DNA of 64,000 nt from assembly GCA_019856515.1 (NCBI GenBank), contig CP082230.1, positions 2,728,001 through 2,792,000 of the forward strand, written 5' to 3'. The notes below the pieces were generated by a model. That model worked only from the letters and a program-made list of their open reading frames with translations. It did not search any database and was not told where the DNA came from. Numbering within the stretch: position 1 is the stretch's first letter; each line of letters opens with the position of its first letter. The stretch comes from Prolixibacteraceae bacterium (GTDB taxonomy: Bacteria; Bacteroidota; Bacteroidia; Bacteroidales; Prolixibacteraceae). The translations under genes were made by a program, and so were the position numbers. Shown here piece after piece: positions 4,076 through 63,248 of the stretch.

Positions 4076-5101
4076 TTATTTTCCTCTCTCTAGCGTTTTT
4101 CTAAACTCTGAAACTTGCACTACTGAACCTAAAACAAACAGTTTATCTGCTCGGTCTAATTCGTAATTGTCTTGCGGGTTGAAGATATATTTTCCGCTTT
4201 TCTGTTTTACCCCCACAATATTGATTCCAGAGACATCAATTCTTTTCAACTCGTCGATAGTGCGCCCCTCAAACATGCGACACATATAGTCACATCCAAT
4301 CTCTTCCAAGGCCACATCCTTATTGCTTTGAAGTAGTACATATTCCATAAACTCCACGACATCAGGTTGCATAACCAACTTTGACATACGTTGTCCACCC
4401 ATGCGTTCAGGCATGATCACATTGTTTGCCCCAGCTCTCTTTAGCTTCATATCCGAGCCTCTTTCCGATGCACGGCTAATGATCTTTAGATTGGGATTCA
4501 TCTCTCTGGCCGTAAGCACCACAAAAACATTGTCTGCATCATTAGGTGTGGTGGCAATCAAAGCTTTTGCTCTATCTATACCCGCAGCAATCAAAATCTC
4601 TTCATGGGTGGCATCTCCCTTTATGTATAACATGTTGGGAGACTCTTTGATCCGATCGATAACATTGTCTCGTTTCTCTATGATGACAAAATCTTGCTCG
4701 TGGTCCTGAAGCTCCAAGCATGCTTGCTCTCCATTGCGGCCAAAACCACAAACAATGACATGATCGGTTAGTTTATGTATACGTTTATTCACTCTGTTAT
4801 TTTTTATGTATTCAAACAGTTCGCCTTCTACAATAAAGGTCACGACTGCCGTACCTAAGTAGGCCAAATTACCGAGCGACATCAATATCAATGCCGAAGT
4901 GAAAAGTCGTCCCACCTCTGAGAGTGGCTTGATCTCCCCAAATCCTACGGTAGAGACGGTGATGATGGTCATATACAGCGCATCAATAAAGCTGTACTCT
5001 TCAAGAACCATATAACCAACAATACCAAAAGTCAGAATTAATACAAAAATAGAGATTCCTATTCTGAGTGTCTTTGTTGATTTATGTTTAAACTGATTCA
5101 T
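4076..5101 (-). CDS. Two-helix potassium channel with RCK (TrkA-N/TrkA-C) domain
   Basis: A 341-residue inner-membrane channel subunit. A first membrane helix (about 13-33) is followed by the pore loop with selectivity filter TVGFGE (51-56), a variant of TVGYGD, and a second helix (about 66-92). The cytoplasmic part begins with the Rossmann signature VIVCGFGRNG (115-124) of an RCK/TrkA-N domain and ends in a TrkA-C-type ligand domain. This is the MthK/Kch architecture, in which a ligand such as Ca2+ or a nucleotide gates K+ flow. The ligand cannot be told from the sequence. The DUF2851 gene lies 51 nt upstream on the same strand, so the two may be co-transcribed. Confidence 0.92.
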   Translation of the reverse strand: MNQFKHKSTKTLRIGISIFVLILTFGIVGYMVLEEYSFIDALYMTIITVSTVGFGEIKPLSEVGRLFTSALILMSLGNLAYLGTAVVTFIVEGELFEYIKNNRVNKRIHKLTDHVIVCGFGRNGEQACLELQDHEQDFVIIEKRDNVIDRIKESPNMLYIKGDATHEEILIAAGIDRAKALIATTPNDADNVFVVLTAREMNPNLKIISRASERGSDMKLKRAGANNVIMPERMGGQRMSKLVMQPDVVEFMEYVLLQSNKDVALEEIGCDYMCRMFEGRTIDELKRIDVSGINIVGVKQKSGKYIFNPQDNYELDRADKLFVLGSVVQVSEFRKTLERGK

Positions 5102-5152
5102 TAAGCGATATAACTAATTTTCCTTTTTACCAAATGTACCACAATTTCAGAA

Positions 5153-6433
5153 TTAATGCTTTAAATTATTCAATAAAACATGTCCAATGTCACATTCTAA
5201 ACATTTATCTCTCATACAGTATTGATGGTGTAAGGCAATGAGTGCTTGCGAGTCCATAGCATGAACTAGTTTGAATCCTCGTTGTTGCCACATCTTCGTG
5301 ATGTAGTTCTTCTCATATGGAATTGTCTGAAGCCAATGTAACCCCTTCTCTTTCCAATCTTCTCGGTTGAGCTTCTCCCCATAAACCATCAAAAAAGGAA
5401 TGATAGTATTGATAATAATATTGTAGATCGCCGTTTTGCTTAACCTCTTTTTCTTAAACGTACTGCTCCCCTTGAACTGGTAATGGGTGTGCCAATACTC
5501 CGACGGCGTTACATCAAAAAGTGCTACCACCTCTTGGATGTTCTCTTTTTCTACGGTCTGAGATAGGAGATGAGTGCTCTGTGCTATCAACGAAACAAAT
5601 TGTGCAATACGTATCGTTGGGAAATTTGTTGGACGCGTCCGCATAAACTTCCAAATACCTCTATCTAGCGGTATCAAACCATACTTGTTCTTCAAAAACT
5701 GATACTCCGAAATTAATCGGCTTACCCATGGATCTCTGCTCTTCTCTGGAAGTAACCCCGATTGTCCGAAATATAGTGCCTCCAAACGATCTATACCATC
5801 TCTCTCTTTCGATAATATAGTGAGTGGTATCGATCGTGCCAACTGCTCCATTGGGTCGCTATTGATTCGGAATCCAAAACTGCGTGCCAACAGATAGTAA
5901 AACACATGTCGCCAATCGTTCAAACTCCATTGTAATAACGACTTCATCTCATCCGCTTTTCGCTCCAAACGATCCACCGCCAATCGTTGAAGAATAAAGT
6001 GGTAGTGAAGCATCGGAATTTCACCTGCCATTACATCACATCGCAACCACTGCTTGCAAGACTCCCACTCCTCTAACTTCTCTGTGAATTCGGATAACAA
6101 AACCAACTCTAGACACGGGATCTCTCCCCCCGTTCTTCGAAATACTTTCCTATCCTCTTCTAATACCACATGCAAAATGACATTATCATACGATGCCTGT
6201 TTATCATGACCATGACTATACCATTCAGAAGATCGGTGATGAATCTCGACATTCCCAACCCAAAGCGTACCATCAATGCGTATTCGTGCTTGAAAAAAAT
6301 CGGGACCAGCATCATGATGAAGATAACCAGGATGAATCACCTCAATCAACTTTCCGTCACTACTCGTCAGATTATCCAATCTATACAGCCTGTGTTGCCA
6401 AGCCTGTTGTATATGTAATTCGGTTAATTTCAT
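5153..6433 (-). CDS. DUF2851 family protein
   Basis: A Bacteroidota-typical DUF2851 protein of unknown function, about 426 residues from the chosen start. The family pattern is clear near the N-terminus: PGYLHHDAGPDFFQARI followed by WVGNVEIHHRSSEW and NVILHVVLE, which recalls a nuclease-like fold but has no demonstrated activity. The C-terminus has a Cys-rich cluster, CMRDKCLECDIG, that could bind metal. The open frame extends 10 codons upstream to a TTG at 6463, but the ATG at 6431-6433 (MKLTELHIQQAW) matches the family start and is preferred. It lies just upstream of the K+ channel gene. Confidence 0.8.
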   Translation of the reverse strand: MKLTELHIQQAWQHRLYRLDNLTSSDGKLIEVIHPGYLHHDAGPDFFQARIRIDGTLWVGNVEIHHRSSEWYSHGHDKQASYDNVILHVVLEEDRKVFRRTGGEIPCLELVLLSEFTEKLEEWESCKQWLRCDVMAGEIPMLHYHFILQRLAVDRLERKADEMKSLLQWSLNDWRHVFYYLLARSFGFRINSDPMEQLARSIPLTILSKERDGIDRLEALYFGQSGLLPEKSRDPWVSRLISEYQFLKNKYGLIPLDRGIWKFMRTRPTNFPTIRIAQFVSLIAQSTHLLSQTVEKENIQEVVALFDVTPSEYWHTHYQFKGSSTFKKKRLSKTAIYNIIINTIIPFLMVYGEKLNREDWKEKGLHWLQTIPYEKNYITKMWQQRGFKLVHAMDSQALIALHHQYCMRDKCLECDIGHVLLNNLKH

Positions 6434-6749
6434 CTCAATATATATAGAATCAAAGCCCAACAATCAGCCCCTTACTCATGATAAATATCCTTCACCCTCT
6501 GCATACAAAATCCATCCCCTTCTCCTCTTTTTTTGATAGAAGAGGCTACTAGAAATTATTGTACCGTAGACCTCTCCTTAAGAGACATTAAAAATAGTGC
6601 AGTTCAGGATCTTAGTAAAGACCTTATCTCTATTATACAATTCATCGATCGCAAAGTTTAAATTGCCTATGTTTTTATTTACTCATCACACAAAACAGAA
6701 GTCATCCTCCTGCATCAATCGTACTTCCTTGCTACCTTCTCCTCACCTA

Positions 6750-7422: not shown

Positions 7423-8523
7423 TTAGAAGATGGCTTTGTGGTATTGGGTTGTTTTACTCCACTGAAGGTTGGAGTAGAATTCCAGGTAGAAGGTATTTGG
7501 GTCAACAGGAATATAGCAATTGATCCCATGGCTGTTTTTTAGTGATAGTGTTTCTTGAAAATATTCTGTGTGGTCATGAAAGAGGATAAAAGAAGATAGT
7601 GCTGTTTGCATTTGATTTGCTGCTTTGGTTCCATAGTTTTTATCTATCATATCCATCAGATCATAGCAGTCGGCTTCTTTATGAAATTTCTGCACATTTG
7701 TTGCTTTGACTTTTGTATTAGGTCGAGAGGAAATGACCTTTTGCATGACAAGTTGAACCATTGGGATATGGTTTAGGTTGTACAGAGCAATGCTTGCGGA
7801 TTGCATCCTCCCTTCTTTTTGTTTGTAATGGTCAATATAGGTTTTACACACCTCTTTTAGTCTGTCTTCAATAGTAAGCTGTGTATTAAGAAGAACTGGC
7901 AGTATCTTTTGGTAGGGCATTCCTGTGGTTAATATATCCGTTGGAGAAGCAATAAGATAATCGGAGGTGTTTTGTAGTTCAGAAGCCACTTCTACACTTC
8001 CCATCAAACAGGCATCGAAAAGGATATATTTAAATTTTGTTGGCAATGCCGTTGCGAGATCATGGATCTCCATCGTAGATTGCTTGTCCACACCAAATGA
8101 TTTGGTTTTGGGTTTTGGGGCAGGAAACCAAGAGGTGCCATGTGACCATAAGATCAATCCATACTGCTGGGATGGATATCTCTCGATCACCTCTTTGAGT
8201 ACCTGATGGAGGGTATGGCTATCCGCCGAGTTTTGATCGGGATATTGTTTAACCACCTGTCGGTGGATAGCCGTACCATTCTTTTTGTTGAGCTCCATAA
8301 GGTAGGAGCTTTTATCCCCCTTATCCATAAAAACAATCACCTTCTGATCCTCCTTTATGCCTTCTACCATATCATATACATTCAACAGCGCATTGCCTTT
8401 GAGGTCATTATCTGCTGCCATATAGATCACTAATGTCTCGCTGGATTGTGGTTCTAAACTATCTGTTTGTTTGCAACTAAATAATATTGAAGCAAGGAAT
8501 ATATATAGATGGAGATAATTCAT
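7423..8523 (-). CDS. Clostripain-family (C11) cysteine protease lipoprotein
   Basis: A 366-residue C11 peptidase, a family that cleaves after Arg or Lys and includes clostripain and the Bacteroides protease fragipain. The N-terminus is a lipoprotein signal with Cys17 in LFSC. The predicted catalytic His128 lies in LILWSHGTSW and Cys172 in LFDACLMGSVEVA. The length fits single-chain C11 enzymes with a modest C-terminal region. It is the last of three lipoprotein genes on this strand, 51 nt after the 184-residue lipoprotein gene, and probably sits on the cell envelope. The natural substrate is unknown; its neighbours are candidates. Confidence 0.88.
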   Translation of the reverse strand: MNYLHLYIFLASILFSCKQTDSLEPQSSETLVIYMAADNDLKGNALLNVYDMVEGIKEDQKVIVFMDKGDKSSYLMELNKKNGTAIHRQVVKQYPDQNSADSHTLHQVLKEVIERYPSQQYGLILWSHGTSWFPAPKPKTKSFGVDKQSTMEIHDLATALPTKFKYILFDACLMGSVEVASELQNTSDYLIASPTDILTTGMPYQKILPVLLNTQLTIEDRLKEVCKTYIDHYKQKEGRMQSASIALYNLNHIPMVQLVMQKVISSRPNTKVKATNVQKFHKEADCYDLMDMIDKNYGTKAANQMQTALSSFILFHDHTEYFQETLSLKNSHGINCYIPVDPNTFYLEFYSNLQWSKTTQYHKAIF

Positions 8524-8574
8524 TCAAATAGAATTAGTCTTGGGTGGATAATTGAATAAGAGATAGCAAATTTG

Positions 8575-9129
8575 TTATCGGTCTTCTTTTTTGTAATATA
8601 CTGTAATGTCTGATAGATACACAAATCTAGGATCTTTTAGATTCTGAAACTCAGCAGTCATGTTGATAATGATGGTGTCGTTTCGGTATTCTATAGTTTC
8701 AAAAGAGTCATTATCATTCCATTTAGTTGCAATATCTGTTTTGAAACCTACACTTTTATCAGTATTTTGATAACACTCTTGACTATTGATAGTCCATAAA
8801 TCAAATTCTAGTGATAGCATATGGGGATCGTCATAATCTCTGATTAATACTTTGGGAATTGTATAGGAAAAGTATGTTTTGTCTCCAGAGTTATGTACAT
8901 CAAGCATAAAATTGCAAAAGTCTGATCGAAATCCTAATTGGGCTGATTCTACTTCAACAAGCATGTCCTCATGTTTCCCATTGCGGTTTACATCAATATC
9001 CTCAGAAGACTCCCATTTAACCATTTTATATCTGCCGATCACATGGTTTGGTATATTATTTTGATTCTCATCATTTGAACAAGATGAAAGGGCAATTAGA
9101 GCTAATGCAAAAATAATTAATTTCTTCAT
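8575..9129 (-). CDS. Unknown lipoprotein, 184 residues
   Basis: A small secreted lipoprotein with signal peptide and lipobox LSSC (Cys17). No family was recognised. Residues around DIDVNRNGKHEDML form an EF-hand-like acidic loop of the kind that often binds Ca2+ in Bacteroidota surface proteins; the remainder looks beta-rich, possibly lipocalin-like (a guess). It lies between the large unknown lipoprotein gene (57 nt upstream, with an intervening hairpin) and the C11 protease gene (51 nt downstream). The shared strand, tight spacing and common lipoprotein signals suggest one functional unit. Confidence 0.75.
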   Translation of the reverse strand: MKKLIIFALALIALSSCSNDENQNNIPNHVIGRYKMVKWESSEDIDVNRNGKHEDMLVEVESAQLGFRSDFCNFMLDVHNSGDKTYFSYTIPKVLIRDYDDPHMLSLEFDLWTINSQECYQNTDKSVGFKTDIATKWNDNDSFETIEYRNDTIIINMTAEFQNLKDPRFVYLSDITVYYKKEDR

Positions 9130-9146
9130 GGTGTAAGTTTTTATAA

Positions 9147-9177
9147 AGTCCGATTGAGGCTTAATATCAATCGGACT
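9147..9177 (-). terminator. Intergenic hairpin between two lipoprotein genes
   Basis: An 11-bp perfect stem (9147-9157 with 9167-9177) and a 9-nt loop lie 10 nt past the stop of the large lipoprotein gene. The following T run on the minus strand is weak, so it may attenuate or process the transcript rather than end it. Confidence 0.55.
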
Positions 9178-9186
9178 ATTTTAAAT

Positions 9187-11120
9187 TTAGTCTTCATACA
9201 TAGAAGGATCTTTCTTGCAGATGGGAGGTTCTTCTCCTGGTGCTACAAGTACCATTGGTCTTCTATTAGGGGAGCACATTCCATTGTTTGGATTAGCAAT
9301 CGGAGATCCTGGATTGATGAATCCTGGAGGTAGAATAACTTTTGGTTGGTTTGTGTTAGAAGGTGAATGTGAGGTGCTTTTAGGCGGTCCTGATTTGGTG
9401 ATGGGTTTGTAATTCGTTGGCATTGGAAAAACTGCAAGTTTAACAATGCGTCCATATGGGATGTGTTTAATAGGATAGTATTTCTTCCCATCAAGATTCT
9501 TGGGCTTAGCTTTGGGGTCCATTAAGATAATTTCGTCTTCGAATTTAAGGTGTTCACTACCAACAAGATCTGTAGAGTCTGTTACTGTAAATTTGAGTTG
9601 AGTTGAAATCTGTTTTTGATATTGATGTGAATATGCCGCATTTAGATTTAGATTTACCGAAGGTTTGGTGCCTGTGGCAGTACTTGCTCCCCCTACGGTC
9701 GTACTTGCCCCACCTGAAATGTCTAATTTATTAGTTGTAGTAAAAGTTGTGGTGGTTGTAACTTCTTTCTCTATACCAGTGTCGAGTTCAAAGATATTGA
9801 TAAGTACACTTTTAGACTCGGTAAAAGGATCCCAATATTGGAGTCTAGATAAAATATCGAACTTAATCCATTTCGGTTTAATCCATTCAGGTCTAACTGT
9901 GTAGTATTCTCGACTTCTTCTGCCAAAATTTGGTGTAAGCCGATCAATATGAACATGTGAAATGTCAAATGCTTCTCTGATATTGACTGGCATGATTCTT
10001 TTTGATTCGATATCAACTTTATCTCCTTTGACTTTTCCAATATCAAATTTAAAGGTATATATCGAACCGTCCCACAACATTTTGTAAAGATCTTGTCCTC
10101 GATGTTTTTCTTTTCGTACTACTATTCGGTCATTACTACCAATATCAGTCTTTGTCATGCCGTTAATTGAAGGGTCATATGGTTCTACCTCTGATTTTGA
10201 GAGATATTCTAAGCCATTATAGGTGATTTGCATCGCATAGATACGTTCACGAATCTTATTATTTAAATTGTCATGATTAAAACTTCTATGGTTTTTATCT
10301 AAATTATAATAGATGTACTCTCTTTGACAAAGGTTATTGTCATTCTCGTTATATGCTTTTATTATACGAGGATCTATCTCACTTTCTTCTACATATAAGT
10401 ATTTTCCATATGTGGTCCAATGTTTGTTCGCCATATTTGTTGGTTCAATCCATGCTCTTGATTTTGTTTTTGTATTATAGTATGCTGGATTGAATTGATC
10501 ATACTTAAAGCTATAGATCGCTTGAGAGGATTTTGTTGCAGGAGTTTTCACCTCCATTCTTTCACTATTCTTTACGATCAGGAGTGGAAACATTGGTATC
10601 TCATTAGAAGGAATATAACTAACCGAATCTCCATTGCTCAGAACGGTGTTGTTAGGATTACCAAGATCTGTGACAATTCCAATGTATTGGTCGGATATAT
10701 CCCATTTTTCTGCGTTCATACCTCCGAATGATTCTAAGTTAGGAAATAGAATATTGATTAGTGGAGCACTTTTTTCGATTTGATCCAGTGAGTTTACATC
10801 TTCTGCATATACATCCAAAGCTTGTTTGAAGGTGATCCCCTCTTTTACTTCTTGATTCTTTACTTTACCATAAAGAATATCATAGTCACAATCGAATTGT
10901 TTCAGTGCTTCTTTTTGGATGAAGCTTCTTACTGCTTCATCGTTGTACACTGCTTTTGAAAGAATCTGAGCGAATTTGGTTTGTGCTTCGCTATGTGAAA
11001 TAGTAGGTAAGATTTCAAAGGCACTTGCATCTACCGTATTACTTGTTGCATCCAAGGCTTCTTGTTGGCATGACATCATACCCCCCCTAATACAATAAGT
11101 GAAAAGATTAGTTTTTTCAT
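9187..11120 (-). CDS. Large unknown lipoprotein, frameshifted in its signal peptide
   Basis: A protein of about 640 residues with no recognised family. The ATG at 11118-11120 starts a perfect lipoprotein signal, MKKLIFSLIVLGG, but a run of seven G then shifts the frame and a TGA follows at once. With eight (or five) G the signal would run straight into MMSCQQEALD and the whole downstream frame. Without that change the frame is open upstream to 11172 but lacks a signal. The body ends in a segment of alternating Thr/Ser and hydrophobic residues (about 465-540) and a Pro/Ser/Asn-rich tail. The alternating segment loosely recalls membrane-inserting hairpins of aerolysin-type toxins; this is speculative. 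It heads the lipoprotein/C11 protease cluster. Confidence 0.7.
11081..11087 (-). repeat. G7 homopolymer tract in a signal-peptide codon stretch
   Basis: Seven C on the plus strand (G7 on the coding strand) lie 31 nt after the start codon of the large lipoprotein gene. The tract is one base short of putting the signal peptide in frame with the mature protein, the arrangement expected of a slipped-strand on/off switch. A base-calling error is the main alternative. Confidence 0.7.
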
Positions 11121-54740: not shown

Positions 54741-54963
54741 ACTGAATATTTATAGTTGTTAGTTTATTACCTCCTAAAAGTAAACACTATCTCCTGATAC
54801 TTAAAAGATTTCCATATGTTTCACAGGATAAATATTATAACTAAAAAGTAATACTATCAAAACATTATTACCCATGAGTTTTATCGTAAGTTGTCTAACC
54901 TCCAACGAATAATTAAGGTAATATCACCATTTATATGCTACTCCTAAAAACAGGCTTTCAACA

Positions 54964-55105
54964 CATCGTTGCAGCAAAAACAGATGGATTATAAATTCCT
55001 CGACTTGTTAATATCGATCTTGGACATCTCTTTTAATGATATCAATGAATCTTATATAATAATGCTTCGTTAGTTACGATAACATAAAGGCTGTTCCATT
55101 AATTC
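54964..55105. repeat. Degenerate dispersed repeat, copy B
   Basis: Matches 11411-11555 over about 140 nt at moderate identity, including ATCGTTGCAGCAAAAACAG and AGATGGATTATA. It marks the left edge of the accessory region around comM. The sequence 54741-54963 shows nothing recognisable. Confidence 0.6.
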
Positions 55106-55146
55106 CTTCTTTTGTTTCGATTTCAGAAAATCAAATACAGACATAA

Positions 55147-55184
55147 TTTACGGCTTGTTGTTTGCAAAAACAGCAAGCCGTAAA
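55147..55184 (-). terminator. Hairpin in the gap left of the three-gene operon
   Basis: A perfect 11-bp stem, TTTACGGCTTG (55147-55157) with 55174-55184, plus a further TTG/CAG-type inner pairing. Function is inferred; it lies past the small minus-strand frame 55232-55414. Confidence 0.55.
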
Positions 55185-55231
55185 GATCATTTTCCTCTTG
55201 CTGAAACACCAACTGAAAAATTGTTTCCATC

Positions 55232-55414
55232 CTAGTCATTTCTTATTGTTTTGATGCAACACAAGAAGTGTTCTCCTAATGTACCATACTTAAAGACAAT
55301 ACGAAGTCTCAGTGGAAGTTCAATTAAGCCATACATGACCTGATAGGCAAGTTTTTGGTAATCTAACTTGCCATAATTTTTTATCACATGCTCTAGCAAC
55401 ATCAATTTTATCAT
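55232..55414 (-). CDS. Short frame, possible mobile-element relic
   Basis: A 60-residue minus-strand frame (MIKLMLLEHVIKNYGKLDYQ at its start; GTLGEHFLCCIKTIRND at its end). The composition looks like genuine protein, but no family was recognised and no ribosome-binding site is evident. It may be the tail of a lost gene, lying next to the degenerate repeat. About 210 nt separate it from the three-gene operon. Confidence 0.3.
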   Translation of the reverse strand: MIKLMLLEHVIKNYGKLDYQKLAYQVMYGLIELPLRLRIVFKYGTLGEHFLCCIKTIRND

Positions 55415-55626
55415 GCGTGAGTGTAATAAAGTTCCATAAGAATTAAATGAATTCTATATTTATTCCCGAGTCCACTCCGAAAACCTCATTTTATTGAAAA
55501 CATGAATCTCACACCCTATATATCTTTGATAATCAACATGTATTTTTATTGAATAAGGAATAAATACGTAATTAATAGTTCTCGGAGTAGCTCATTACCA
55601 AGATTTAGGACAAATAACGGGTAAGA

Positions 55627-56748
55627 TTAAAATTGACTTACATTATCATGGCTAATCTTTGTTGCACTCTCAATTGTTTCAACATTCCATTCACCAATTT
55701 CTAAATCACAAACACATCTAACTACACCTTTATTAAATTTTACTTCTATTAATGTTGGATTAAATTTATCAATAGCCTTTGCAATACTTCTATGCCTCTT
55801 TTTGGGTTTAGCTTTGGATAAAGTTGGAATAGAAGTAATATAAAGTCTGTCAGAATGCCCTAGAAAAGTATTAATCATATCGCTTTTAGGAAGTTTCTTG
55901 TTCTTACTATAAGGACTTAACTTAATAACAGTGTTTTCATCCATTAAAACATCCCAAACTTCTTTATTATAACCTGTGTCAGAACCGTGATGTGGAATTT
56001 TGAAAACATTTGATTTTCCATCAAGGGTTTGGCTATTATTAATAATACACTTCCAACCCTTACGTTTATCTGCATTGACTTCTAAGTCTGATCCAAGAAT
56101 TATTCTTTGGTCATTAATTTTAACAAGTATAGCAACACTCTTATCGTTTGGTGTATGATTAATAATTTTTCTATTATTCACTCCATAATCCGTGATTAGT
56201 GTAGATATTTCCTCATCAAATTCGCTCATTATATAATCGGATGGTGATAATGAAATTACCTTAAAATTGATACCATTACTATTATTGGAAAGCAAAACTC
56301 TGTCTTCTGAAGCCTTCCTCATAGTTCCTTTTCTTGAAGCCAGTATTTTAAGACATGCATTTAGTTCTTCTGTAGAACAAGCAGTCTCTTCATTCTTTGT
56401 TTTATTGTGATCTAACCCAACCAGTTGTAAGAATTTTGTTCTATCACTCGCATGGGCAAAGGATAAAATAGCACTTTCACATTTTTCATATAAATCTGAT
56501 AATCCACGAATATGGTCTTCATGCCAATGTGTACATATAATTAGTTTGACATCTTCCTCTAGATTAACACCACGTTCTTCAAGATACTCTAGTGGTAATG
56601 ATTTCTTTGTATTAGGATTTTTACAAGAATCTATTACAACCCAGGTGTCATTTCCTAGATTTAAAATAATACTTTCGCCATATCCTCCACCAGTTCCAAT
56701 TAGGATGGTTTCTATTGTGTTAGTTTGATTCAATTTACCTATTCCCAA
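55627..56748 (-). CDS. ComEC/Rec2-like metallo-beta-lactamase-fold protein
   Basis: A 373-residue MBL-fold hydrolase without signal or membrane segments. The metal motif is HWHEDH (74-79); later ligands are in IILGSDLEVNADKR and KIPHHGSDTGYN, the latter a hallmark of the ComEC/Rec2 MBL branch whose members include DNA-degrading domains of the competence channel. This protein is cytoplasmic and stand-alone. Its start overlaps the previous gene by 10 nt, making it the third gene of a tight operon with two unrecognised proteins. Nuclease activity is a reasonable guess, not shown. Composition is AT-rich. Confidence 0.85.
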   Translation of the reverse strand: MGIGKLNQTNTIETILIGTGGGYGESIILNLGNDTWVVIDSCKNPNTKKSLPLEYLEERGVNLEEDVKLIICTHWHEDHIRGLSDLYEKCESAILSFAHASDRTKFLQLVGLDHNKTKNEETACSTEELNACLKILASRKGTMRKASEDRVLLSNNSNGINFKVISLSPSDYIMSEFDEEISTLITDYGVNNRKIINHTPNDKSVAILVKINDQRIILGSDLEVNADKRKGWKCIINNSQTLDGKSNVFKIPHHGSDTGYNKEVWDVLMDENTVIKLSPYSKNKKLPKSDMINTFLGHSDRLYITSIPTLSKAKPKKRHRSIAKAIDKFNPTLIEVKFNKGVVRCVCDLEIGEWNVETIESATKISHDNVSQF

Positions 56749-57293
56749 TTAATATTATCATTATAATAAGCTGCCTCGTCAGCTATCCTATTAACATCAT
56801 CTTCAGTAAATGCTACGCTTCGTTTAAATCGCAACAACGATCGTTTTTCTATTTGACCGTTATCAGATGCATAACCAACACTCCAATAAAAAATTGCGCC
56901 TTTATTTAAAAGTTCAATGTCACTAGGTGAAACATCATAAATATCAAATGATGCTATTTCGTATGTCCCCTTAGTTACCTTGTCTTCAAGTTTTGCTGTA
57001 AATTCATCACCATCAATTTGCTCAACAACGCCAATCCAATGCTGTGACTGTTTGAAAAACATGTTCCTCTTAGTGTCTATCATGTCTTCATATTTTGGTA
57101 CAGCTTCAAAATCATCGTCAAACTTAAATTCAATTTCAGTGTTGTTGTTTAAAGACAATTCTTCATTTCGCTTAACAACCTTTGATTTAAGGGCATTCAT
57201 AATTATTGTTTCTTCATAAGAATCAACACCCAATATCGAATTTCGATTCTCCAATACCTTATTGGCCTTGATATTTGTGTCAAATGTTGTCAT
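56739..57293 (-). CDS. Unknown small protein of the three-gene operon
   Basis: A 184-residue soluble protein with no named family recognised. Residues about 85-150 (HWIGVVEQIDGDEFTAKLEDK, then LLNKGAIFYWSVGYASDNG) look like a small beta-barrel followed by a short strand pair. I have a general impression of similar beta-barrel proteins beside nucleases and other accessory genes, but cannot name a family. It overlaps the upstream 222-residue gene by 4 nt (ATGA) and the MBL gene by 10 nt, so the three must be translated together. It could be a regulatory or inhibitory partner of the MBL protein. Confidence 0.7.
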   Translation of the reverse strand: MTTFDTNIKANKVLENRNSILGVDSYEETIIMNALKSKVVKRNEELSLNNNTEIEFKFDDDFEAVPKYEDMIDTKRNMFFKQSQHWIGVVEQIDGDEFTAKLEDKVTKGTYEIASFDIYDVSPSDIELLNKGAIFYWSVGYASDNGQIEKRSLLRFKRSVAFTEDDVNRIADEAAYYNDNINWE

Positions 57294-57958
57294 AACAAAT
57301 TAGTTTTTGTAAGAATATCATCTACTATACTCTTTGCTCTTTCAATAGAATCATTCCAATTAGCTTCAAGCATTTCTACCATTTCAAGGTTTGTGCCAAG
57401 ACTACCCGATTCAACCATATAATGGTCATTTATATTAAAGTTTACGCCATATAAAATCTTAGGTTCGCTAGGTGCGATTTTAACCCTTAAGTGCCCATTT
57501 TTATTATCTTTTCTTTCCTTTTCGAAAATTTCAAGCTGTAATAGTTTTGGGTCATTTAATGAATCTGTCCAATTGTTTAATGGACACAAGATATTACCAA
57601 ACTCATAATATTTTTCCGCATTTGGTAATGCTAAGTCATAAATATGGTTAATCCCTAAAGATTTAATAGGGGTTTCTCTAAGTATTTTGTATACACTAGA
57701 CGCAAGGTCTTTTAGGGGCTCAAAGTATGGTGATTTGGTGGTCGTGAATTCACATCTATGTTTATTTACTTCTATCCCAACCCAATCAAGCTCATATTTA
57801 ACAAGTTCATTATGAATAACACTTACCTTTGCATTTTTAGCTTCTTCTTCCCTGATTAATTCTTTGTTCTTTAACCAATACGGTTGCAGAATTACGGGAT
57901 TAAACTCACCAAGAAAAACAATACTTAATGATTCTTTTTGCAAATATCTATCCATCAC
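57290..57958 (-). CDS. Unknown first protein of the three-gene operon
   Basis: A 222-residue soluble protein, first in the operon. The N-terminal VFLGEFNPVILQPYWLKN followed by a strand-rich domain and a helical C-terminus (VEMLEANWNDSIERAKSIVDD) is a pattern seen in uncharacterised proteins of accessory regions, but I cannot assign a family. It carries no membrane segment, nuclease motif or nucleotide-binding motif. The promoter must lie in the 220 nt before it, divergent from the broken comM copy. A sensor or adaptor role is only inference. Confidence 0.7.
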   Translation of the reverse strand: MMDRYLQKESLSIVFLGEFNPVILQPYWLKNKELIREEEAKNAKVSVIHNELVKYELDWVGIEVNKHRCEFTTTKSPYFEPLKDLASSVYKILRETPIKSLGINHIYDLALPNAEKYYEFGNILCPLNNWTDSLNDPKLLQLEIFEKERKDNKNGHLRVKIAPSEPKILYGVNFNINDHYMVESGSLGTNLEMVEMLEANWNDSIERAKSIVDDILTKTNLL

Positions 57959-58119
57959 ATTTTTTTATTTCTATGTAAATATATTAAAATAACGAATAAT
58001 CAGACTTAATGTTTATATTAATTTTCTCATACAGTGACTGTTCTTAAAAAGAAGAGAAGTCTACTATTTCAAAATCATAGTACCTCTTCATTATTCATAT
58101 CCAATCATTTCCTCCACAC

Positions 58120-58620
58120 CATTTTGAACCAACCCCATCCCCATTTCTTCTATCTGTGAAATAGAAAACCATAGACGATGTTAGTAAAGACCTACGGAAG
58201 TACCTTGCAGGGGATAGATGCCATCACCATTATCATTGAAGTAGAAGTGTCATCCAGTGGCATTCGATTTCATATGGTTGGACTACCCGATAATGCTGTC
58301 AAGGAGAGCCAACAACGTATTGAGGCGGCACTTCGATACCATGGGCTAAAGACTCAGGGGAAGAAGATCGTCATCAATATGGCTCCTGAAGATTTACGTA
58401 AAGAAGGCGCATCATATGATTTGCCTATCGCCATTGGCATTTTAGCCGCCTCAGTGTGGATATTAGCACCTTCGCTAGACAAGTACTATCATTATAGGAG
58501 AACTTACCTATTACCATCCAAGCACGTAAAGAGGGATTCGATGGATTCATTCTACCTCTAGAGAATGCCCACGAAGCAGCAGTCGTCGATAAACTCAATA
58601 TCTACGGAGTAAAAACTTAA
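58120..58620 (+). repeat. Partial duplication of the comM 5' region
   Basis: Bases about 58120-58490 match 59596-59965, including upstream non-coding sequence, and a further stretch (58520-58615) matches 60040-60127. The first 230 bases differ at very few places, the middle at many mostly synonymous positions, and the last 90 hardly at all, so the copies form a mosaic. A metal-dependent hydrolase gene lies between the copies. Confidence 0.88.
58178..58620 (+). pseudogene. Truncated comM copy
   Basis: The first 103 codons match intact comM, including VKTYGSTLQGIDAI and FHMVGLPDNAVKESQQR. Then a deletion of about 40-50 bases in the IIMGELSLDG region shifts the frame; the sequence QARKEGFDGFILPLENAHEA is still readable in another frame and ends at GVKT and a stop. 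The AAA domain is absent, so it cannot work. Confidence 0.88.
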
Positions 58621-58679: not shown

Positions 58680-59522
58680 CTAAAAATAGACTTTCAATTT
58701 GCCATCAAACCACACCATGAACCGAAAGGTTTTATCTCCCAATATCTCCTTCTGTTGGGCTTTGGAATAGGCTTCCAGCTCTTGGTAGTTATTACAGTGT
58801 CCAGAATAGGCATAATCAATATCTCGGGAGTGTATCTGAAACAGTGCCAAAGCAAACCCCAGAGTAAATAGAGTCAAGGTGAACTTATAGGCAGAGAATC
58901 TCACAAAACGTTGGCTCACCAATACCACGATATTAAATAGGATAACCCCTACCACAATCAGAAAGACATCGTAGTTATTCCACCACCAAATATCTCCAGT
59001 ACCACCCGTGTAAGAAGCCATTGGAAAAAAGAAGTTCACTCCTCCCCAAGAGGCTGCTGGAGTGACCATATCCTCTAACAGATGGAGTGTATAAGCAGAG
59101 ACAAAAGCAACAAACAATACGATGTCCTTACGAAAAGCATCGACTAAACTCTTTAGCCTTAAATTTCTACCCTGTGAAGTCCACAGATATTTTAATATTA
59201 CGACTATACCTCCGAACAAAATGGCAGCCATGAAGCTATGCATAAAAGCATGGTGGGAGTACCAAAATTTGGCAGAATATATATCTCTTCCCGAATGGGA
59301 TAGATGAAAGAGCTTGCCCAATATACCATCAAAATGCGACCATAAGCTGATGGCATCCACATCGGGAAGTGCCCCCGCAAAAGCAGCAAAAACCACTATA
59401 AGTAACTTCTTTTTAAAAGAGTTATTAGAAAACGAAGCTGCAACCGTTCCTACGGCAATGCCTGAGAGGGTATGTGTAAGGATATCCATATTGTTCCATT
59501 CGATATAAGTGAGATTCTCCAT
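58680..59522 (-). CDS. YdjM-like membrane-bound metal-dependent hydrolase
   Basis: A protein of about 280 residues with DILTHTLSGIAVG at the N-terminus, FAGALPDVDAIS and FWYSHHAFMHSF, the His/Asp pattern of the YdjM/DUF457 family, and five to six hydrophobic segments. In Escherichia coli YdjM is SOS-induced and inner-membrane; a phospholipase C-like fold has been proposed, but activity is not established. The frame extends to a TTG at 59552; ATG at 59522 is used, and the ATG at 59489 (MDILTH) is equally possible. It lies between the broken and the intact comM. Confidence 0.85.
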   Translation of the reverse strand: MENLTYIEWNNMDILTHTLSGIAVGTVAASFSNNSFKKKLLIVVFAAFAGALPDVDAISLWSHFDGILGKLFHLSHSGRDIYSAKFWYSHHAFMHSFMAAILFGGIVVILKYLWTSQGRNLRLKSLVDAFRKDIVLFVAFVSAYTLHLLEDMVTPAASWGGVNFFFPMASYTGGTGDIWWWNNYDVFLIVVGVILFNIVVLVSQRFVRFSAYKFTLTLFTLGFALALFQIHSRDIDYAYSGHCNNYQELEAYSKAQQKEILGDKTFRFMVWFDGKLKVYF

Positions 59523-59652
59523 TAATGACCTAAGCCAATAAAAGAAATACAAAATTAGTAAATGGAAACATGAGATACATCAATTCCCACACTTCATTTT
59601 GAACTAACCCCATCCCCATTTGTTCTATCTGTGAAATAGAAAACCATAGACG

Positions 59653-61194
59653 ATGTTAGTAAAGACCTACGGAAGTACCTTGCAGGGGATAGATGCCATC
59701 ACCATTACCATTGAAGTAGAAGTGTCATCCAGTGGCATTCGATTTCATATGGTTGGACTACCCGATAATGCTGTCAAGGAGAGCCAACAACGTATTGAGG
59801 CGGCACTTCGATACCATGGGCTAAAGATTCCGGGGAAGAAGATCGTCATCAATATGGCACCTGCGGACCTACGTAAGGAAGGAGCATCATACGACCTACC
59901 AATCGCTATTGGCATTTTAGCTGCCTCAGAGCAGATATTAGCTCCTTCGCTAGACAAATACATCATCATGGGAGAACTCTCCTTAGATGGCTCTATTAAG
60001 CCCATAAAAGGAGTCCTACCGATTGCTATTCAAGCTCGTAAAGAAGGGTTCGATGGATTCATTCTACCTCTAGAGAATGCCCACGAAGCAGCAGTCGTCG
60101 ATAAACTCAATATCTACGGAGTAAAAAACCTTAAAGAGGTGATCGACCTACTCTCTGGAAAGAGTGTGATGGAGCCCACTGTGATAGACACACGAGCCGA
60201 ATTTGAACAGAAGCAACACCTTTTCGACAATGACTTCTCCGACGTCAAAGGACAAGAGAGTGTCAAACGTGCCATGGAGATCGCAGCCGCAGGAGGTCAC
60301 AATATTATTCTTATCGGTGCTCCTGGTGCAGGAAAGACCATGCTAGCCAAACGTATCAGCACCATCCTGCCACCTTTCACTCTTCATGAAGCGCTCGAAG
60401 CCACTAAGATTCACTCCGTAGCTGGATCGTTAGACAAAGAGACCTCTCTGATGACCCAACGCCCTTTCCGTTCTCCACACCACACCATCTCCGATGTGGC
60501 ATTGGTCGGTGGAGGTGCCTACCCTCAACCTGGTGAAATATCTCTATCCCATAATGGCGTTCTCTTCTTAGACGAGTTACCTGAGTTCAAAAGAACCGTA
60601 TTAGAGGTGATGCGACAACCGATGGAAGATCGAAATATCACCATCTCACGAGCCAAGATGACCATAACCTACCCATCCAACTTTATGCTTATCGCCTCCA
60701 TGAACCCATGTCCATGTGGCTACTATAACCACCCAACCAAAATGTGTAACTGCAACCCAGGATCGGTACAGAAATACCTCAACAAAATATCTGGCCCCCT
60801 ACTCGACCGTATCGATATACACTTAGAAGTGGTGCCAGTACCTTTCGAAAAACTTGCAGAGATGAAAGAGGGCGAAAAGAGTAAAGATATCAGAGAGAGA
60901 GTTATTGCAGCTAGAGCCATACAAACCGAACGCTTCAAAGAACTCCCACATGTACACTCTAATGCGCAGATGACCTCGCGAATGCTACGTGAGTTCTGCC
61001 TTCTAGATGCCCAAGGAGGTAAAATACTCAAAGAAGCCATGAACCGCCTCTCCCTTTCTGCCCGAGCCTACGACCGTATCCTTCGTGTCGGAAGAACTAT
61101 CGCCGACCTAGACCAAAGCAAAAAAATATCCGCCACACACATCGCCGAAGCCGTCACCTACCGTAGCCTCGACCGCGACTCATGGGGCCGATAA
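59653..61194 (+). CDS. comM: YifB/ComM-family Mg-chelatase-like AAA ATPase
   Basis: A full-length 513-residue ComM. The N-terminal ChlI-like domain is followed by the AAA core with Walker A GAPGAGKT (222-229) and Walker B VLFLDELPEF (about 308-317), then CPCGYYNHPTKMCNC, the family's Cys-rich loop, and a C-terminal domain with LSARAYDRILRVGRTIADL. In Vibrio and Acinetobacter ComM is a hexameric helicase that drives branch migration when foreign DNA is integrated during transformation. Here it is preceded by a broken copy of its own 5' end. In Acinetobacter comM is a known target of resistance islands. Confidence 0.95.
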   Translation: MLVKTYGSTLQGIDAITITIEVEVSSSGIRFHMVGLPDNAVKESQQRIEAALRYHGLKIPGKKIVINMAPADLRKEGASYDLPIAIGILAASEQILAPSLDKYIIMGELSLDGSIKPIKGVLPIAIQARKEGFDGFILPLENAHEAAVVDKLNIYGVKNLKEVIDLLSGKSVMEPTVIDTRAEFEQKQHLFDNDFSDVKGQESVKRAMEIAAAGGHNIILIGAPGAGKTMLAKRISTILPPFTLHEALEATKIHSVAGSLDKETSLMTQRPFRSPHHTISDVALVGGGAYPQPGEISLSHNGVLFLDELPEFKRTVLEVMRQPMEDRNITISRAKMTITYPSNFMLIASMNPCPCGYYNHPTKMCNCNPGSVQKYLNKISGPLLDRIDIHLEVVPVPFEKLAEMKEGEKSKDIRERVIAARAIQTERFKELPHVHSNAQMTSRMLREFCLLDAQGGKILKEAMNRLSLSARAYDRILRVGRTIADLDQSKKISATHIAEAVTYRSLDRDSWGR

Positions 61195-61239: not shown

Positions 61240-61911
61240 CTATTGCAATATTTTGTCCACAAGAATCCAAACACTTGTCCCCAGCTTATCTACTAATTCA
61301 TCATTATCTGAAGGCATTGCTTTACCTCTTACAATGGCATCGTTTATGCCTGATTGAAATTTATCAAACTTAAAATTACTTTTTCTATAACCACCTAATA
61401 GATCAGCCAAGGCTTTCTCTAAAAACCTCTTCTGCTTATTCACCTTTCTATTCTCATAGAGATCATCTTCATCATAAGCATCTTTATCTGTCAAGTGGAG
61501 TAGCAACCATAATTCAAAGGTTGGATTAGATATTGCCAAGCCATAACCTCTCTCCTCACATTGGCGAATTATCTCTTTCAATTGTGATTCAGAAACATTC
61601 CCTTTATCTCTATCCACAACCATCCACAACTCGTATGGTGCTACCCCATGTTCTTGCCAATAGGTAGACCGCTCCTCGAGAAGTTCGTAGACATATTTTG
61701 GATGACTTTTAGTGTCTGTTTCATCCTCTTTCTCTAATCGTTCAATCTTAACTAAACCTGTCCTTCCAGAATCTTTTAATCCATCAAAATAATCCTCTTC
61801 CGTCTTTCCTTCCCCTACAATTGATATGATATATATATTCTTAGGCTCTACGGTTTCTGATCTTTGCTTCCTCTCTCCAAAAGAAGTTTGAACACGTAGC
61901 CTAGTTCTCAT
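61240..61911 (-). CDS. RloB-family protein (AbiL-like second gene)
   Basis: A 223-residue RloB-type protein. The marks are VGEGKTEEDYF (32-42) and VVDRDKG (98-104), a Glu and Asp-x-Asp arrangement like a TOPRIM-type metal site, then SNPTFELWLLLHL. Genes of this family follow an AAA ATPase in AbiL-like anti-phage systems and were first noted near restriction genes. The stop of the ATPase gene lies 2 nt before this start, so they are co-translated. Nuclease activity is inferred from the motif only. Confidence 0.85.
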   Translation of the reverse strand: MRTRLRVQTSFGERKQRSETVEPKNIYIISIVGEGKTEEDYFDGLKDSGRTGLVKIERLEKEDETDTKSHPKYVYELLEERSTYWQEHGVAPYELWMVVDRDKGNVSESQLKEIIRQCEERGYGLAISNPTFELWLLLHLTDKDAYDEDDLYENRKVNKQKRFLEKALADLLGGYRKSNFKFDKFQSGINDAIVRGKAMPSDNDELVDKLGTSVWILVDKILQ

Positions 61912-61913
61912 AT

Positions 61914-63248
61914 TTAAATATTTAGGTTCTTAAAACTCTTGAAGATAGGGATAGCTCCATATCTCCCTAAAAGGTAATCTTTGTTTATCTTTTTATCATT
62001 TCTCACCTTAAATTCATCTAAAGAAAACAATCTAGATTGGTTACTGTTTTTTTCCACAAACCATATCTCATCTCTTCTAAGTAAATCAAGATCGAGTAGT
62101 AAAGATTCGTGTGTGGTAACCACCAACTGACTTTGATTGTTTTTACTAATATCCAAAAACAGTTCGATGATAGCATAAGTTAACTTGGAATGAAGGCTCC
62201 TGTCTATCTCATCAATTAGAAATACTGAATCAGAACTAGCCAACGATTTTAAGGCGGGAATAAAGTCGAACAGACGCTGTGTTCCGTCCGATTCATCAAT
62301 CATATCAAACACCACGGCCTTTCCTTGATCTGAAAGGTGCTCTAAACCGAGCTTTTTAACTTTGTATTTATTTTGATCCCCACGCTCTAAGGCATAGGAG
62401 ATTTCATTGAACTCAAATATGATAATTTCATTCTCAACAATCTTACTCGACAGTTCATCCTTCATTTTTTTCGGAAGCTCAAAACTATCTAGATCCATCT
62501 CTTCAGAAGTAACCCCATGTATCCCTGTTTGAAAAATAGACAAGAATGAATTAAACGATTGCGCCATCTCATTATCATCTCCAATAAAACTTAAACCTTT
62601 AAATTTCGACTGTGGGAATAGTACGGTAAGCTTGTGATCAAACCACTTATACACGCTTTGGAAATATTTGGCTTCGGAAAGCCCCTCTAAACTCTTTCTA
62701 TTTATCTCATTTAAAAACAGCGTACTGTCCGACTTCGCAAAATCTTCTCTATAAACATCAAACCGAATCTTTGCTTTCCCTTTTAATGAAATCCCAAACT
62801 CAATATGATGCGTCCCTTGATCATCACGAAAACGTTCAAATATCTTCTTTTCTCCTTTGGCACTAATTTCAAGCAACCACTCTTCTATAATAAGATTATC
62901 TTTAAGAATCGCTGCAAACCCGTAGTTATAGCACTTCCCCTCCACCATTATCTCGTATTGGAAAGTAGAAGGTAATAACTCATTTCCATCCTTTAATCGA
63001 TAATGACAATTAATGGGATCCACCTTATCTATACCTGAAAGAATTACCCTTTGTGAGAAATCAATAGCTTTAATAAAATTAGACTTACCAGAAGCATTGG
63101 CGCCATAAAGAATCCCTGTCTTGAGAATTGACAGACTATTCCCTTTATAAAGATGGGATGGTTTACGTCGCTCCTGATTTGCAATCATAGAGAACTCAGA
63201 CACCTCATTAAACGACAGAAAATTCGAAGTATTAAATCGTATTAGCAT
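61914..63248 (-). CDS. AAA/ABC-type ATPase (RloA/AbiLi-like)
   Basis: A 444-residue SMC/ABC-like ATPase. Walker A is GANASGKSN (49-57), the signature-like DESDGTQRLF lies near 318-327, and Walker B is SVFLIDEIDRSLH (about 345-357), with the switch His in VVTTHESLLLD. Together with the RloB gene it forms a two-gene unit resembling AbiL-type abortive-infection systems, in which the ATPase is thought to sense infection or gate a partner nuclease. No restriction genes are adjacent. Confidence 0.9.
   Translation of the reverse strand: MLIRFNTSNFLSFNEVSEFSMIANQERRKPSHLYKGNSLSILKTGILYGANASGKSNFIKAIDFSQRVILSGIDKVDPINCHYRLKDGNELLPSTFQYEIMVEGKCYNYGFAAILKDNLIIEEWLLEISAKGEKKIFERFRDDQGTHHIEFGISLKGKAKIRFDVYREDFAKSDSTLFLNEINRKSLEGLSEAKYFQSVYKWFDHKLTVLFPQSKFKGLSFIGDDNEMAQSFNSFLSIFQTGIHGVTSEEMDLDSFELPKKMKDELSSKIVENEIIIFEFNEISYALERGDQNKYKVKKLGLEHLSDQGKAVVFDMIDESDGTQRLFDFIPALKSLASSDSVFLIDEIDRSLHSKLTYAIIELFLDISKNNQSQLVVTTHESLLLDLDLLRRDEIWFVEKNSNQSRLFSLDEFKVRNDKKINKDYLLGRYGAIPIFKSFKNLNI

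Follow-up and report, generated by a model that had tools for sequence, protein, structure and literature searches.

A mobile three-gene cassette with a ComEC-branch MBL-fold protein as a likely phage-defence system

Between a gene for a 746-aa protein and comM, a Prolixibacteraceae chromosome carries three overlapping genes, here called A, B and C, and the question that they raise is what such a compact operon is for. The window analysed is the whole stretch of 64,000 nucleotides from contig CP082230.1 in which the operon lies. The genes span 55627-57958 on the minus strand, with A overlapping B by 4 nt and B overlapping C by 10 nt, and all three open reading frames were located at the places given in the first-pass annotation, which had called them an operon of three overlapping genes. 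The AT-rich composition ascribed to the operon is borne out by a GC content of 0.320 compared to 0.366 for the whole window. The same annotation suggested that a nuclease-type effector with two partners would fit either a defence module or one linked to competence. The features on which the following discussion is based are collected in Table 1.

Table 1. Features of the cassette and its surroundings, in coordinates of the window
Feature	Position	Strand	Basis and remarks
Gene A, first gene, 222 aa	57290-57958	minus	ORF; GTG start, ATG codon directly after
Gene B, 184 aa	56739-57293	minus	ORF; ATG start
Gene C, 373 aa, MBL fold, ComEC/defence-nuclease branch, PHROG 28593	55627-56748	minus	ORF, TTG start; profiles
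HWHEDH, C residues 74-79, metal-binding motif	56512..56529	minus	Sequence
HHGS, C residues 253-256, metal-binding motif	55981..55992	minus	Sequence
Insertion 1 relative to ComEC-like proteins, approximately residues 109-138, E128 inside	56335..56424	minus	Alignment
Insertion 2 relative to ComEC-like proteins, approximately residues 177-197, variable sequence	56158..56220	minus	Alignment
Segment with no equivalent in sister genome G395	54961..58119	.	DNA alignable up to 54960 and again from 58120; whole cassette inside
Duplicated comM 5' fragment	58178..58561	+	Also in sister genome G395
Long comM ORF	59653-61194		ORF
AbiLii/AbiLi-like pair (RloB + AAA_21), likely defence, far side of comM	61240..63248	minus	PADLOC, Pfam; no counterpart there in G395

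The surroundings of the operon were described earlier as containing a broken comM and a degenerate repeat. A 5' fragment of comM is present, but a long comM ORF lies beside it, and a 290-aa ORF (58680-59552) is found between the fragment and the full comM. The repeat that was meant may be the direct repeats of comM 5' parts, one pair of 300 nt (58104-58403 and 59579-59878, 95%) and another of 111 nt (58505-58615 and 60017-60127, 94%). A sister genome, the congener G395, has the left neighbour (the 746-aa protein, at 88% identity) together with the comM fragment and comM, but not the cassette. Since the same comM duplication occurs there without the cassette, the comM arrangement is independent of it. 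The DNA similarity between the two genomes is broken across the operon, which places the cassette within a stretch that lacks a counterpart in the sister genome. The AbiL-like pair that had been noticed nearby was recognised by PADLOC (AbiLi 2.4e-84, AbiLii 5.4e-21) and by Pfam (AAA_21, RloB). As neither this pair nor the cassette has a counterpart at this place in the sister genome, the comM region is flanked on either side by genes that are lineage-specific and likely to serve defence. In another Bacteroidota genome (L008), a cassette copy at 4162-6442 lies less than 2 kb from a comM gene at 8030-9583, the product of which is 65% identical to the ComM of the window; this adjacency may be a coincidence or may mark a preferred site.

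Queries with A, B or C yielded fifty contigs, the genes of which were rebuilt with HMMs. The set is not de-replicated and contains near-identical prophages (for example L076-L078, L083/L084 and L087/L088); it also omits further copies from the same places, and two E. coli loci discussed below (L022 and L023) stand outside it. Within this set, A, B and C are all present in 43 of the 50 contigs, and in every one of the 43 they follow the order A-B-C on one strand. Gene A overlaps B in 39 of these complete copies, while the gap between B and C does not exceed 40 nt in 42. Among the 42 copies that could be aligned in full (L102 was left out on account of a cut C), the lowest pairwise identities are 13% for A, 11% for B and 23% for C. 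Since the order recurs in all complete copies down to these identities, it is conserved beyond chance. The median identities of 0.21, 0.21 and 0.30, respectively, demonstrate that C is the most slowly diverging of the three proteins. The pairwise distances of the three proteins correlate with r 0.93-0.94 over the 42 copies, a value that includes the effect of shared descent and was equalled in none of 2000 permutations.

Seven contigs have an incomplete cassette, and four of these are explained by contig ends (L055, L075 and L103) or by a missed ORF (L101, where B was lost to ORF pruning although the DNA, read by eye, shows the barrel of B). A shorter contig from the same place as L055, L019, has B and a C fragment. 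The three true exceptions are an A-like gene with other partners (L011), a lone B-like gene (L015) and a distant lone MBL gene (L105). For A, searches at the protein level returned 67 homologues, for B 11, and the C profile had 598 matches (120 of them listed), the proteins of the window being counted in each case. The enterobacterial A proteins are related to those of Bacteroidota with an hhalign probability of 98.3% (E 1.8e-14), as obtained from alignments without a common member. Co-occurrence of the three homologues, which the first-pass annotation had proposed to count, is close to absolute, and A, B and C are one cassette whose parts are near-inseparable.

Two of the exceptions deserve a description of their own. 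On a 3.6-kb contig of a Fibrobacter MAG (L011:484-2136), the A-like gene is followed by genes for 194-aa and 151-aa proteins and no MBL gene is present; this locus may belong to another system that has an A-type component. On a viral contig (L015:8525-11492), the lone B-like protein is encoded between an AAA_23 gene and a metallophosphatase gene that, by reading, are SbcC/Rad50-like and SbcD/Mre11-like, respectively. Given these flanking genes, barrels of the B type may have a role in other nuclease complexes.

The distribution of the cassette is sporadic and mobile. A profile of A matched four of 395 genomes of the phylum, source genome included, and one of 61 relatives, which was the source genome itself; none of three congeners matched, one of them being 77% complete. 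Copies are carried by an Adhaeribacter plasmid and by a conjugative Pantoea plasmid, and in Pedobacter (L009) approximately 3 kb separate a copy from genes of conjugation type (YWFCY/T4SS coupling protein and DUF5712). Among 5426 E. coli genomes, 14, strain ECOR29 being one of them, contain the cassette at an identity of at least 99%, and a more distant copy occurs in strain F5. The cassette is thus found on chromosomes and a plasmid of Bacteroidota, on a conjugative plasmid of Pantoea, in prophages of E. coli and in viral contigs of P2-like type.

The position of the cassette within phage genomes is informative. At all four E. coli loci that were opened, three of which (L020, L022 and L023) represent the 14 near-identical genomes, the cassette is opposite in strand to the phage genes and is located between the holin/lysis genes and the gene for antiterminator Q. 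Over 29 viral contigs, C is directly followed by a Q relative in 11, and A is preceded by a holin relative in five. Five contigs, labelled P2-like from their size, layout and PHROG names, have the cassette between the portal/terminase genes and the replication-nicking gene, a placement made by PHROGs for L087 and L091 and by similarity to L087 for L086, L088 and L089. In P2 itself, the portal-to-replication interval houses the exclusion genes of the phage. In one further contig (L092), an integrase gene follows directly after C.

Some copies also adjoin genes of known defence systems. On the Adhaeribacter plasmid, a gene for SngC (5.6e-211, Shango-like) is near the cassette and a TerB-domain gene is found further on. 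The neighbours include HmaB/HmaC, AbiEi and HEC-05 at L010 and a candidate PDC-S27 gene at L007, and type I specificity and restriction genes are upstream of the cassette in the viral contig L104; the seven neighbour genes considered at these three loci had been preselected for their defence-like look. When ten near neighbours from seven loci were scanned with PADLOC, only one matched, and at several Bacteroidota copies the flanking genes look like housekeeping genes by reading. With respect to the defence neighbours that were to be looked for, the copies occupy prophage cargo positions and some, not all, adjoin known defence systems. The E. coli relative of A carries a RefSeq accession, WP_000143147.1, that is named "anti-phage protein" in two of the 14 genomes with near-identical cassettes and "hypothetical protein" in another genome under the same accession. 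A search by accession found no paper from which the name originates, and the name is treated as a lead and not as a test of function.

Among the three proteins, C is the only one with Pfam matches, the best being Lactamase_B (7e-07). In PADLOC, it is matched by RTasMBL (3.4e-13), the LmuA model (3.7e-11) and, more weakly than by these two, the candidate PDC-M48B, where the similarity is to an MBL (1.5e-7); in PHROGs, it falls into its family with an E-value of 1.3e-44. Three NCBIfam models respond below their curated cut-offs: Avs1a (NF041809, 25.5 bits, cut-off 420), the MBL-fold protein of 6A-MBL (NF058524, 26.4 bits for the window C and 28.4 bits for that of E. coli, both falling well short of the cut-off of 220) and ComEC/Rec2 (TIGR00361, 20.7 bits, cut-off 190.05, profile positions 559-649 of 663 only). 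The name 6A-MBL was not found in the literature searched. Models of GloB, lactonase and RNase Z also responded weakly. As the first-pass annotation had it, C appears to be without a membrane channel, judged from its length and from ComEC models that match only through their C-terminal MBL part.

The two metal-binding motifs that had drawn attention to C are both in place. HxHxDH and HHGS are found in all 120 listed of the 598 C homologues, and GxDLE in 115 of them. In 46 C proteins of the contigs, with cut and distant ones included, the counts are 44, 44 and 43 for HxHxDH, HHGS and GxDLE, respectively. The residues H74, D78, H79, D221, H253 and H254 are present in all 42 aligned copies and H76 in 98%. 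From its sequence, C has a ComEC-type MBL core with complete metal motifs. It shares the HxHxDH, N, GxD and HHGS layout with the MBL domain of ComEC/Rec2, but lacks the rest of ComEC, has DSC where three ComEC-like proteins have DxG, and contains two insertions.

These insertions may be considered in terms of the spacing between conserved residues. The segment H74-L167 is 93 residues long in the window C compared to 67 in three ComEC-like proteins (from L028, L029 and L040, labelled by size, layout and PHROG names), and the segment L167-N201 is 34 residues long compared to 13-18. Both are maintained across the family, with 85-100 and 33-39 residues, respectively, in all 42 copies. Within the first insertion, E128 is identical in all 42 copies and faces gaps in the ComEC-like proteins. 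Four proteins from the phylum that match the RTasMBL profile (L056-L059, assigned to this class by profile alone, three of them lacking the second histidine of HxHxDH) have segments of 87-92 and 54-58 residues, which are longer than in the ComEC-like proteins at the same two places; insertion 2 of C is about 20 residues shorter than theirs. In the available text of PMC12799240, HamM, Avs1a and CanC are described as carrying a pair of insertions which, in predicted structures, seem to obstruct the active site. Exposure to their protease partners is reported to turn HamM and CanC into potent nucleases, and cleavage of Avs1a to take place in the course of infection (PMC12799240). Judged by layout relative to ComEC, the insertions of C would be at the same places as those described there for HamM, Avs1a and CanC.

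One of the RTasMBL-profile matches has an unusual setting. At L058:1085-6033, an MBL relative with both insertions is encoded after ORFs of 395 aa and 606 aa, which by eye look like SIR2 and HerA proteins, and before a 253-aa ORF. A similar pair of an MBL and a 240-aa protein is found at L059.

The two partner proteins match no Pfam, NCBIfam or PADLOC model. Protein A matches only family 36401 (9.9e-07) among the PHROGs, while B has no PHROG match at E <0.1. The predicted structure of A is confident (pLDDT 95.5) and describes a compact alpha/beta protein with no clear known fold. That of B is partly poor (mean pLDDT 71) with a variable, low-confidence N-terminal part, and ends in an OB-like small beta-barrel at approximately residues 82-158, in keeping with the earlier guess of a small beta-barrel. 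No relative of a protease was recognised by title among the listed structural matches of A or B, a result that does not by itself exclude a protease, and none was recognised among the selected cassette neighbours that were scanned. An identity of A as a TIGR04255 protein was considered and found no support at the sequence level, where hhalign comparison of the profiles gave a probability of 0.1-0.4% against seven TIGR04255 proteins, two of them identical. A TIGR04255 protein is encoded elsewhere on the chromosome of the source genome (G000:C1:2051787-2052479, L062; 119.8 bits), and that family is sporadically distributed.

Of the systems described so far, the gated MBL nucleases (HamM of Hachiman, Avs1a of AVAST, and the Lamassu- and DRT-associated MBL proteins) offer the closest parallels. 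As far as the available text of PMC12799240 describes them, they share with C a ComEC-type MBL core with two insertions and the arrangement as a separate effector gene in a multi-gene cassette. They differ by a protease partner, where the present cassette has A and B, neither of which was recognised as a protease; the likeness is one of layout relative to ComEC. The Canu system of the same source (CanABC: a caspase, CanB and an MBL nuclease) likewise has a three-gene prototype with a gated nuclease downstream of its partner. By its description, it is set apart from the present cassette, in which no caspase was recognised and A is a 222-aa protein of no Pfam family. The cassette may work like the gated MBL nucleases: it has the core, its two insertions may gate the active site, and a protease partner was not recognised. 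Among the papers listed by the literature searches, no publication describing the cassette was found by title or by the start of the abstract; supplements were outside this search and an unpublished status is not claimed. A term search of the available text of PMC13092281 and PMC9519451 gave no occurrence of MBL, lactamase or ECOR29.

Considering these observations together, it is very probable that the cassette is a defence or exclusion module. A more specific reading, that the three genes make up a mobile system against phages, with C as a latent MBL deoxyribonuclease of the ComEC branch under the control of A and B, is likely. This retains the defence half of the original proposal, a nuclease-type effector with two partners, for which the near-absolute co-occurrence, the prophage cargo sites, the RefSeq name, the matches to defence MBL proteins and the two insertions all argue. 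Protein C would be a latent MBL-fold DNase, the active site of which may be regulated by the two insertions as in the published gated nucleases. Proteins A, compact and alpha/beta, and B, with its flexible part and OB-like barrel, would form the sensing and controlling part that holds C inactive before infection. Upon phage infection, A and B would release or load C, DNA would be degraded and phage growth stopped, and the outcome for the cell would probably be killing or arrest. How C might be opened can be suggested more tentatively: a gated MBL pro-nuclease could be activated without proteolysis if a sensor made of A and B, upon binding phage DNA or a phage protein, shifted both insertions, one of them carrying E128, off the active site. 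This step is plausible, though rather less than an even bet.

Other readings of the same cassette were weighed. If C were a pro-nuclease that is cut as in Hachiman, AVAST and Canu, the protease would be supplied in trans by host or phage, or A or B would be an unrecognised protease. The two insertions reported for HamM, Avs1a and CanC are shared by C, and in the Canu prototype, likewise composed of three genes, the one for the nuclease lies downstream of that for the caspase (PMC12799240). However, A and B match no Pfam, NCBIfam or PADLOC family, no protease was recognised by title among the listed structural matches or among the selected neighbours, and insertion 2 is variable and shorter. 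Proteolytic opening of this kind is judged unlikely. An equally unlikely arrangement is an abortive system of the toxin-antitoxin type, in which C is the toxin, A and/or B act as antitoxins that disappear upon infection, and a dedicated sensor is dispensed with. While the tight coupling of the genes, the copies on plasmids and viral contigs and the variable, low-confidence N-terminal part of B would suit such a system, it does not account well for the conservation of all three genes or for the confident fold predicted for A, and neither A nor B matches a known antitoxin family.

The substrate of C might also be something other than DNA, such as a nucleotide signal or another small ester, in which case the cassette would serve signal removal. 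The MBL fold is common to many hydrolases and the GloB, lactonase and RNase Z matches fit this suggestion, but the best named matches are defence MBL proteins, which align colinearly with C across most of the domain, and the motifs of C are laid out as in ComEC; signal removal is accordingly judged improbable. Least credible of all is a link to natural competence or to ordinary metabolism. It draws on the ComEC-like domain of C and on the comM genes near the cassette in the window and at L008, yet comM is nearby in only these two of the 11 Bacteroidota loci compared, many copies reside on viral contigs and plasmids in a sporadic distribution, and the sister genome has the comM arrangement and no cassette. 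The competence half of the first-pass proposal, with neighbouring comM as its one link, was consequently set aside.

For the defence reading, some practical points follow. Since the PADLOC and NCBIfam versions used miss A and B, defence annotation with them overlooks the cassette. As copies exist in E. coli, the cassette is directly testable in that host. If the non-proteolytic opening of C is true, it would be a second control of this effector family, alongside cutting by a protease. A conserved cassette that joins a two-insertion MBL protein with two partners of no known family suggests that there is another route by which a DNA-destroying enzyme may be kept safe and switched on.
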